Positions 50,523 through 63,778 of a stretch of 64,000 nt of DNA are shown piece after piece. The position numbers were made by a program, and so were the translations under genes. A model generated the notes under the pieces. The model saw only the letters and a program-made list of their open reading frames with translations, was not told where the DNA came from and ran no database searches. The first letter of the stretch is position 1; each line of letters starts with the position of its first letter. This DNA is from Streptomyces sp. NRRL S-87 (GTDB lineage: Bacteria; Actinomycetota; Actinomycetes; Streptomycetales; Streptomycetaceae). Location: NCBI RefSeq assembly GCF_000719335.1, contig NZ_JOGB01000003.1, positions 278,620-342,619 of the forward strand, in the 5' to 3' direction.

Positions 50523-51503
50523 ATGACCCGCTACTCGGTACTCGTCCCGTTCGTACCCCGCCGGCCCGAACAGCTGCTGCCCTACGCCGGGCTCGTGCAG
50601 TGGACGGGCGCCCACCGCCTCTGGCAGGGCCAGGGCATGCTCACCGAGCCCCACCAGGGCTTCGCCCACGCGGCGGGGGCCGGCTTCCGGATCCCGACGG
50701 GACTGGGCGTGACGCTGATGCCGATGCGCCACCCGTACGAGGCGGCCCTGCAGGCCAAGTCGCTGTCGCTGGTGACCGGCGAGTCGGTGGTCGCGGGCTT
50801 CGGCCCCGGGTCCCGCGAGATGCAGTGGGCGATGCGCGGCGAGCCGTACAAGAGCCCGCTGACCGCCGCCCGCGAGTACCTGACCGCGGTGCGGGCGGCC
50901 CTGACCGGGACGCCCGAGGTCATGGAGGGCGACTACTGGCACCACGCGGGCCGGCTGGCGCCGCTGCCCGGACCCCGTGTCGAGATCGGCCTGGGCGTGC
51001 TGCGCCCCGGCATGGCGAAGGTGGCCGGCGAGCTGGCCGACGTGGCCATCACCTGGCTGACCCCGGCCCGCTACCTGAGCGAGCTGATCGTCCCCGCGCT
51101 CGCCGCGGGGGCCGAGAAGGCCGGCCGGACCGCCCCGCGGGTGGCCGCGATCGTGCCGCTCGCCCTGGCCGCCGACGACCGGGACCCGGCCCGGCTGGCG
51201 CTCGCCTCCAACGGCGCGCACCTGCGCCTGGCGCACTACCGCGACATGCTGCGCAAGGGCGGAGTGCCGCTGCCGGACGGCGAGTTCGCCGACGGCGACG
51301 AGACCGCGCAGGCGCTGGCCCTGGTGAAGGGCGACGCGTTCCTGTACGGGACGGCCGACGAGCTGACGGAGAGGCTCGCCGGGTACGCCGCCGCCGGGGT
51401 CGACGAGATCGTCCTCAACGTCACCGGCGTGGCCTCGCTGTACGGACCGCAGGCCGCCTCCCAGGAGCTGAAGGCGCTGCTCGGCGCGCTCGACCTCGCG
51501 TAG
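50523..51503 (+). CDS. Luciferase-like (LLM) F420/flavin-dependent oxidoreductase
   Basis: The 326-residue protein has the fold of luciferase-like monooxygenases and F420-dependent reductases: SVLVPFVPRRPEQLLPY at the start, LGVTLMPMRHPYEAALQAKS, then GFGPGSREMQWAMRG and a C-terminal GTADELTERLAGYAAAGVDE motif. It is the first enzyme of the daptide operon and not part of the basic daptide set as I know it. F420H2-dependent reductases of this superfamily (LanJ_C type, as in lexapeptide) reduce dehydroalanine to D-Ala; with a LanKC nearby, that would fit here. Whether it uses F420 or FMN cannot be told from the sequence. Confidence 0.88.
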   Translation: MTRYSVLVPFVPRRPEQLLPYAGLVQWTGAHRLWQGQGMLTEPHQGFAHAAGAGFRIPTGLGVTLMPMRHPYEAALQAKSLSLVTGESVVAGFGPGSREMQWAMRGEPYKSPLTAAREYLTAVRAALTGTPEVMEGDYWHHAGRLAPLPGPRVEIGLGVLRPGMAKVAGELADVAITWLTPARYLSELIVPALAAGAEKAGRTAPRVAAIVPLALAADDRDPARLALASNGAHLRLAHYRDMLRKGGVPLPDGEFADGDETAQALALVKGDAFLYGTADELTERLAGYAAAGVDEIVLNVTGVASLYGPQAASQELKALLGALDLA

Positions 51504-51590
51504 GCCCCGCTCCTCCCCCGTCCTCCTCCCCGGTCCCCCCTTCCCCCGTCCTCCTCCCTCCCCACGCTTCCGCGCACCCCTGAGGTAGTC

Positions 51591-63479: not shown

Positions 63480-63778
63480 CGGCCCAGGCGCCCGGCGCGT
63501 ACGGGACGGGCACCCTGGTGCGCATCGAGGTCACCGACCTGGCCCCGGCGGGGGCGGCCGCCGAGACGGCCGCCGTACGACTGATCGCGCTGCTGCCCGT
63601 GGGGTGGCACGCCACCCTGCGGGAGTGCGCGGCCGGCTGGGCGACCCTGAGCCTCACGCCCCCGGCGGCCCCGGCGCCCCCGGCGGCCCCGCCGGGGCCG
63701 GGCGGGGCCGCCGCGGCCCGGGCGGTGGTGGACCAGGTGCTGCGGCACCCGGCCCTGCGGGGCTGGTCGCGGGTCTGA
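63476..63778 (+). CDS. Small protein coupled to LanKC, unknown function
   Basis: The 100-residue product starts at ATG 63476, overlapping the LanKC stop by 4 nt, and reads MTAQAPGAYGTGTLVRIEVTD... (first 20 residues only the tail of the string differs), with an Ala/Pro/Gly linker AAPAPPAAPPGPGGAA before a last helix VDQVLRHPALRGW. The N-terminal strand pattern, with VRLIALLPVGWHATLREC, suggests a small alpha/beta domain. I do not recognise a family. Coupling suggests it assists LanKC, for example as a chaperone or recognition partner. Confidence 0.65.
   Translation: MTAQAPGAYGTGTLVRIEVTDLAPAGAAAETAAVRLIALLPVGWHATLRECAAGWATLSLTPPAAPAPPAAPPGPGGAAAARAVVDQVLRHPALRGWSRV

Follow-up and report, generated by a model that had tools for sequence, protein, structure and literature searches.

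The right end of the window, the 64,000-nt stretch of Streptomyces sp. NRRL S-87 analysed here (contig NZ_JOGB01000003.1, positions 278,620 to 342,619), raises the question of what a full-length lanthipeptide synthetase, LanKC, does in a daptide cluster whose precursors contain no Cys. Our analysis indicates that the daptide cluster at this locus is complete, that it is accompanied by genes for a LanKC and a luciferase-like reductase, and that it very probably directs the synthesis of four Cys-free peptides having core Ser converted to D-alanine and the C-terminal Thr converted to an amine (Dmp).

The cluster lies at positions 50523–63778 on the plus strand, with gene order J-B-M-D-C-A1-A2-A3-A4-T1-T2-P-KC-X. 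Profile searches with curated NCBIfam cut-offs identify all five homologues of the daptide enzyme set: DapB, a RiPP recognition protein (RRE; 51591–52784; NF041823, 278.5 bits, cut-off 150); DapM, an N-methyltransferase (52781–53605; NF041820, 322.4 bits, cut-off 175); DapD, an aminotransferase (53605–54948; NF041821, 639.1 bits, cut-off 450); DapC, an oxidative decarboxylase of the iron-type alcohol dehydrogenase family (54948–56243; NF041822, 483.1 bits, cut-off 300); and DapP, the daptide intramembrane metalloprotease (59045–60694; NF041824, 507.4 bits, cut-off 300). Between the precursor genes and dapP are an ABC transporter ATPase, DapT1 (57518–58291; PF00005), and permease, DapT2 (58284–59024; PF12730). 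On the left flank, a 363-aa LuxR-type regulator, REG (48747–49838, minus strand), has a C-terminal GerE/LuxR helix-turn-helix that scores just under the Pfam cut-off (21.9 versus 23.5 bits) and matches no NCBIfam family; homologues of REG are present in related daptide loci. An 82-aa predicted secreted peptide (50157–50405, plus strand; signal-like N-terminus, judged by eye), encoded between REG and the reductase, matches no Pfam or NCBIfam family, and its sole relative among the compared loci is a weak one (42.7 bits, in L040); its membership in the cluster is uncertain. On the right, a tRNA-Met (63909–63983, plus strand; ARAGORN) marks the boundary, and contig and window stop together, ~220 bases 3′ of the last gene. 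The first-pass annotation of this DNA does not mention REG, the nature of the last gene (63476–63778), or a leader repeat in precursor A2.

The two enzymes that extend the daptide set flank it on either side. LanKC (60822–63479, plus strand; lyase, kinase, cyclase-like; predicted Ser dehydratase) matches NF038151 at 878.9 bits (cut-off 575) and PF25816 (RamC_N), and is assigned to LanKC because all of the lyase-kinase-cyclase protein is present and its key residues are conserved. Specifically, H66, K107, K116, D369, N374, and D387 are present in 56/56 LanKC-containing loci of the survey described below, and K256 is present in 46/56, with Arg in the other 10. Elsewhere in the same genome, an 857-aa frame with a weak kinase match (34.5 bits; G000:C16:146880-147452) could encode a second LanKC-like protein. 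The luciferase-like oxidoreductase (50523–51503, plus strand; PF00296, 97.6 versus 27.9 bits) is predicted to be a Dha reductase with a DapJ/LanJC role, and its assignment to LanJC is by context, as a PF00296 protein encoded together with a lanthipeptide dehydratase. Its nearest solved chain by sequence is 1z69, an F420-dependent methylene-tetrahydromethanopterin reductase (E 2.5e-17). It scores below the cut-off of every NCBIfam model that it matches (best TIGR03564, 120.8 versus 234.25 bits) and, on that measure, falls outside the NCBIfam F420-dependent oxidoreductase subfamilies.

Four plus-strand precursor genes lie between dapC and dapT1: A1 (56318–56491; core GFWTGFSAGTAISGAAIASAAIAT; NF041808, 33.7 bits, cut-off 25), A2 (56567–56872; core GFWTGFSAAAGVSAVVSATAVIT; NF041808, 33.9 bits), A3 (56962–57135; core GFWTGFSAGTAISAAGIASATIVT), and A4 (57203–57382; core GWITIGGISAGGAVSAAVSAAVIIT; NF041808, 29.4 bits). 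All three precursors scanned with the daptide precursor model NF041808 pass it; A3, which was outside the scan, has the leader and core pattern of A1. By sequence, an ELExMEAP-type leader end (three of them having L where the motif has M) and a C-terminal Thr are present in 4/4. Each core starts after Pro(−1) and has three Ser and no Cys (0/4); by the latter feature the predicted products are not class III lanthipeptides. A1, A3, and A4 are 57–59 residues long; A2 is 101 residues long. The first-pass annotation had described a full daptide pathway, a full LanKC, a luciferase-like oxidoreductase, and four Thr-ending precursors lacking Cys, and each of these elements is borne out, as are the gene positions assigned to them.

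The predicted chemistry has a precedent. Ren et al. 2023 described LanKC/LanJC pairs in daptide clusters and expressed one such cluster, sca of Streptomyces capuensis NRRL B-3501 (PMC10036551); the name LanJC originates in PMC7268733. By its published description, sca resembles the window in combining daptide core genes with a LanKC/LanJC pair, and the passages of that paper on its product report Dmp and the change of five Ser into Ala, Marfey's assay identifying D-Ala (PMC10036551); the two differ in that ScaA2 has five converted Ser, versus three Ser per core in the window. A related gene set with a product shown thus supports D-Ala plus Dmp chemistry for the window and, by analogy with the Ser-to-Ala conversion in sca, the reductase would be expected to act in the conversion of Dha to Ala. 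The tfDap cluster of Thermobifida fusca, as presented in PMC12338566, likewise pairs a LanKC homologue with a luciferase-like enzyme alongside DapBCDM, DapP, and DapT1T2, but it includes a YcaO in addition, and clusters of this kind make a C-terminal imidazoline; no YcaO match was found in the last 20 kb of the window, where X fills the slot after LanKC. Hominicin-type daptides share with the window the daptide core enzymes and a lanthipeptide dehydratase, but differ from its predicted products in keeping dehydrobutyrines and in having a dimethylated N-terminus (PMC10036551). The first-pass annotation had described hominicin as having both dehydro and D residues; the dehydro residues agree with the passage of PMC10036551 on this daptide, which makes no mention of D residues.

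These published systems also bear on novelty. The first-pass annotation had proposed a possible daptide/lanthipeptide hybrid; with LanKC/LanJC daptides published in 2023 (PMC10036551) and 2025 (PMC12338566), and with LanKC in 56 of the 67 loci compared below, a claim of novelty fails. The cluster is a further LanKC/LanJC daptide cluster, with its anatomy confirmed and of an unexceptional kind.

The first-pass annotation had also suggested searching daptide clusters for co-occurring LanKC, and that search yields a clear pattern. We assembled 68 loci, comprising 54 (L040–L093) of the 68 loci from one scan of genome contigs with a DapC alignment (L094–L107, weak or short matches, were left out), 13 further stretches, and the window. 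DapD is present in 67; the locus lacking it, L078, was excluded. LanKC is present in 56/67, a share that is not that of all daptides, since similarity to the window's DapC was the basis on which loci entered the set; it is absent from the stretches of nine, and the contigs of the other two (L045 and L049) end at DapC. The luciferase-like reductase is present in 53/56 LanKC-positive loci and 0/9 LanKC-negative loci; in the three LanKC-positive loci lacking it (L042, L062, and L090), a contig edge cuts into the cluster at its start. L082 and L086 have the reductase gene to the right of LanKC, on the opposite strand. LanKC adjoins DapP in most related loci. Among the LanKC-negative loci, L089 is an odd locus with matches for DapD, DapC, and part of T1 alone, and L085 is a whole 15-kb contig, beyond which a LanKC could lie. 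In a DapD tree, seven of the nine fall in one branch, and L089 and L115 are nested within LanKC-positive groups (support for L115 beside L055 is weak, 82/48; for placement of L090, 82/84). The LanKC-negative loci are few and lumped, and this is a point against the best explanation. In a separate draw, DapC exceeds its cut-off in 20/394 genomes of the family, the window's genome included.

The closest relatives, L040 (Streptomyces pilosus JCM 4403), L111, and L116, have the same gene order and precursor types as the window, with X after LanKC and REG on the left. They differ from it in having seven precursor rows each, versus four, and in having no tRNA in the fetched stretches. A family-2 glycosyltransferase match lies ≤100 bases after LanKC in 13/56 LanKC-positive loci (L050, L051, L053, L060, L064, L080, and others), an arrangement that suggests glycosylated D-Ala daptides.

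Core composition points to Ser as the substrate. Mean Ser content is 16.0% in loci with LanKC versus 4.8% in loci without (Mann-Whitney p = 2.7e-6; 56 versus 10 loci, L045, whose contig ends at DapC, being counted as negative), and mean Gly content is 14.8% versus 24.7%. Two spurious "cores", in L060 and L093, were removed before these percentages were calculated and a third, in L063, afterwards, so that this one is included in them. Ser is also lower on the LanKC-negative side in all three tree-separated comparisons (L089, 1.6%, versus L082, 7.7%; L115, 7.0%, versus L055, 16.4%; the seven remaining negative loci, 0–8.7%, versus L090, 13.3%), which we count in favour of Ser as the LanKC substrate. 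Cys is absent from the 125 distinct cores of LanKC-positive loci (0/125), the lone initial match being a spurious minus-strand frame in L063.

Because Ser would become D-Ala, we asked whether Ser and Gly alternate with bulky residues, as in D,L β-helices. In the LanKC-positive cores, Ser and Gly do alternate with Val/Ile; the 180-degree period is stronger than in shuffled sequences, and the register is loose. Ser+Gly periodicity has z = 17.9 for the 125 distinct cores and z = 10.4 for 47 less similar cores; Ser-Gly pairs have the same parity in 57% versus 48% of shuffled pairs, and Ser-Ser pairs among the 47 in 52% versus 48% (z = 1.6). Because the register is loose and the alternation is partly seen in LanKC-negative cores (Ser+Gly versus Val/Ile, z = −3.6), we do not claim a mirror alternation. 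The idea of D-Ala as a substitute for Gly was rejected: when similar cores are compared, Ser and Gly replace each other less often than expected (0.65), and Ser and Ala more often (2.02). By a crude rule, 42/59 loci with at least two distinct cores pair a GF-type with a GW-type core; synergy among daptides has already been reported for mpa.

The leaders reveal a further feature associated with LanKC. In LanKC-positive loci, precursor rows have L(−12) in 142/144, M or L(−10) in 143/144, Q(−9) in 143/144, and L(−7) in 144/144; Q(−9) is present in 3/20 LanKC-negative rows, and the ELE and AP elements are common to both groups. Counted by locus, every precursor has Q(−9) in 55/56 LanKC-positive loci and 1/9 LanKC-negative loci; among the latter, Q(−9) is found in both of the L089 precursors and in one of the two of L115. 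Kinship may account for part of this contrast. In an alignment by eye, daptide L(−12)-x-[M/L](−10)-Q(−9) matches L(−18)-x-L(−16)-Q(−15) of the leader of ThurKC, in whose solved complex Tyr243, Glu258, and Arg112 hold leader Gln(−15) and for which leader changes at −19, −18, and −16 stall dehydration (PMC10604976). The corresponding residues of the window LanKC, Y242, E257, and R111, are invariant in 56/56 LanKCs. ThurKC thus resembles the window LanKC in its leader Leu-x-Leu-Gln and its Arg/Tyr/Glu pocket, and differs from it in being a ring-forming class III lanthipeptide synthetase, the window cores having no Cys (PMC10604976).

From these correspondences, we infer that the daptide leader would carry a LanKC docking site, L-x-[M/L]-Q, adjoining the DapB/DapP site. 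In mpa, L(−7) and M(−4) are required for DapB/DapC action, as stated in PMC10036551. Leu(−7) as a residue common to both docking sites was considered and given up: in the substitution results of PMC10604976, L(−13)A has no effect on ThurKC and Q(−15)A a partial one, stalling dehydration in part, with 11 dehydrations still made. These substitution results also count against the docking inference itself. A LELQL motif is named in the ThurKC paper (PMC10604976); the main text of PMC10036551 contains neither "QELE" nor "LELG", and passages of PMC12338566 on TfDapKC and the leader do not name a LanKC docking site.

The leader of A2 is unusual in this regard. It contains three LELGLQELE copies, of which the last alone is followed by AMEAP, and includes an exact 78-bp tandem duplication (56576–56731, plus strand; 2.0 copies, 100% match) in what is a draft assembly. 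By eye, the extra copies are closer to the A4 leader than to the A1 leader. By a loose motif count over 185 precursor-like rows from 68 loci, A2 has five and every other row at most two; some of the rows with two (in L058, L065, L066, L117, and L118) have two close leader motifs. The A2 counterpart in L040, unlike A2 of the window, has a single leader copy. With the LanKC site tripled and one complete DapB/DapP site kept, A2 could be a multivalent LanKC substrate.

The last gene encodes X, a small protein of 100 aa (63476–63778, plus strand). At E ≤ 0.001, neither NCBIfam nor Pfam has a family that X matches (best Pfam match at a limit of 1, 17.9 bits versus a cut-off of 29.8). Among the best 7,990 candidates scored, it has at least 42 database members, itself included, of which those named are all "hypothetical" or "uncharacterized". 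A structure model of X (pLDDT 83.7, mostly confident) has a predicted beta-alpha-beta-beta-alpha-beta fold, with no PDB match at E ≤ 0.001. The distribution of X follows that of REG. Among 57 loci with enough flank, both are present in 17, both are absent in 39, and REG alone is present in one (L114), where X lies <100 bases beyond the fetched stretch; the threshold for scoring REG as present is 200 bits, so that L058 (168), L077 and L085 (102 each), and L086 (37) are scored as lacking it, and the count is not corrected for kinship. Among the ten loci with less flank, REG and X are discordant in L042, L049, and L074, each cut off on the relevant side. X is also matched in 38/295 Streptomyces genomes. 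Of 20 places read, eight are daptide loci, and in 10 of the 12 non-daptide loci REG lies within ~2.5 kb of X; in the other two, L159 has a weaker REG match ~9 kb off and L169 ends at a contig edge. Several non-daptide REG/X loci have weak YcaO and DapP matches. The co-occurrence of REG and X in daptide and other loci points to a regulatory pair, which we propose as their putative role.

Three other readings of the locus have to be weighed. In the first, Thr as well as Ser would be a substrate of LanKC and the reductase, so that D-Abu would arise beside D-Ala, or part of the Dhb would persist, as in hominicin, a daptide that contains several dehydrobutyrines (PMC10036551). Either Ser or Thr can be phosphorylated by the kinase domains of LanKC enzymes (PMC10604976), and the LanKC-positive cores retain internal Thr, the reacting hydroxyls not being readable from sequence; we nevertheless regard this reading as rather improbable, because enrichment of Thr with LanKC is not clear (7.9% versus 5.2% with L045 again counted as negative; p = 0.052), because the report on sca names conversion of Ser alone in the passages on its product (PMC10036551), and because, with the reductase accompanying LanKC in 53/56 loci and the other three being cut off, free dehydro residues are not expected. 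For the first-pass proposal of dehydration without Cys, possibly followed by reduction, the D-Ala part remains the best reading, in agreement with sca (PMC10036551), and the D-Abu part is less likely. Far less probable still is that LanKC serves a class III lanthipeptide locus of its own, with a Cys-bearing precursor elsewhere, and is just a neighbour of the daptide genes. The right side is unreadable past the contig end, which leaves room for such a precursor. However, LanKC sits next to DapP in most related loci, the daptide leaders bear a LanKC-type docking motif, and no credible Cys-bearing precursor with the motif was found in 48000–64000 or in the L040, L111, and L116 stretches. Specifically, when frames of 30–110 aa with an ATG start were searched with a motif pattern between 48000 and the end of the contig, no Cys-bearing class III precursor emerged, the only two pattern matches being nested antisense frames inside dapM.

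The position of X suggests a different role from the one proposed above, namely that of a third tailoring or helper enzyme, sharing the slot after LanKC with the YcaO or glycosyltransferase of other loci. By match positions in the 56 LanKC-positive loci, X directly follows LanKC in 12, the window included, and YcaO lies ≤500 bases after LanKC in 20, numbers that stand beside the 13 loci with a family-2 glycosyltransferase; Pfam confirmed two YcaO and two glycosyltransferase representatives. We consider this role unlikely, though less so than action on Thr. X and YcaO are found together in seven LanKC-positive loci, with X farther right, and in one LanKC-negative locus, L083, which counts against this role, and both the concordance of X with REG among daptide loci, its single exception being explained by a stretch end, and the proximity of the two genes in non-daptide loci argue for a regulatory partner.

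The reading that we prefer is therefore a daptide pathway with Ser as the LanKC substrate. LanKC would recognise the L-x-[M/L]-Q motif as its docking site in the leader, phosphorylate core Ser, and eliminate phosphate to give Dha, which the luciferase-like enzyme would reduce to D-Ala; with Cys absent, no lanthionine would be formed. DapB would bring the C-terminal Thr to DapC for oxidative decarboxylation, followed by transamination by DapD and dimethylation by DapM to yield Dmp, the formation of which by DapC, DapD, and DapM has been shown for the mpa cluster. DapP would then cleave after Pro(−1), the cleavage site known from mpa (PMC10036551), and the ABC pair DapT1/DapT2 would export the product. 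REG and X would act jointly in control of the cluster, outside the chemistry.

How LanKC came to be wired into this pathway is a matter on which we offer a tentative joint reading, in which we have less than even confidence: LanKC may be recruited through the leader, in which its own site, L-x-[M/L]-Q, abuts ELExMEAP, the site of DapB/DapP, with A2 as a multivalent LanKC substrate and REG-X as a two-gene control module. That module, which has no family name in the libraries searched, may operate, within Streptomyces, both in daptide clusters and in one or more further types of RiPP-like cluster.

Most of the compared relatives of the window's DapC come from LanKC/LanJC daptide clusters, an arrangement whose first characterised example is sca. 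The parts of this cluster worth following are the leader docking rule, the tripled A2 leader, and the REG-X pair. In particular, a Gln in the leader and a three-residue pocket in the enzyme constitute a testable rule for recruiting a lanthipeptide dehydratase to a foreign peptide class, and the rule would aid prediction of RiPP precursors that receive D-Ala.
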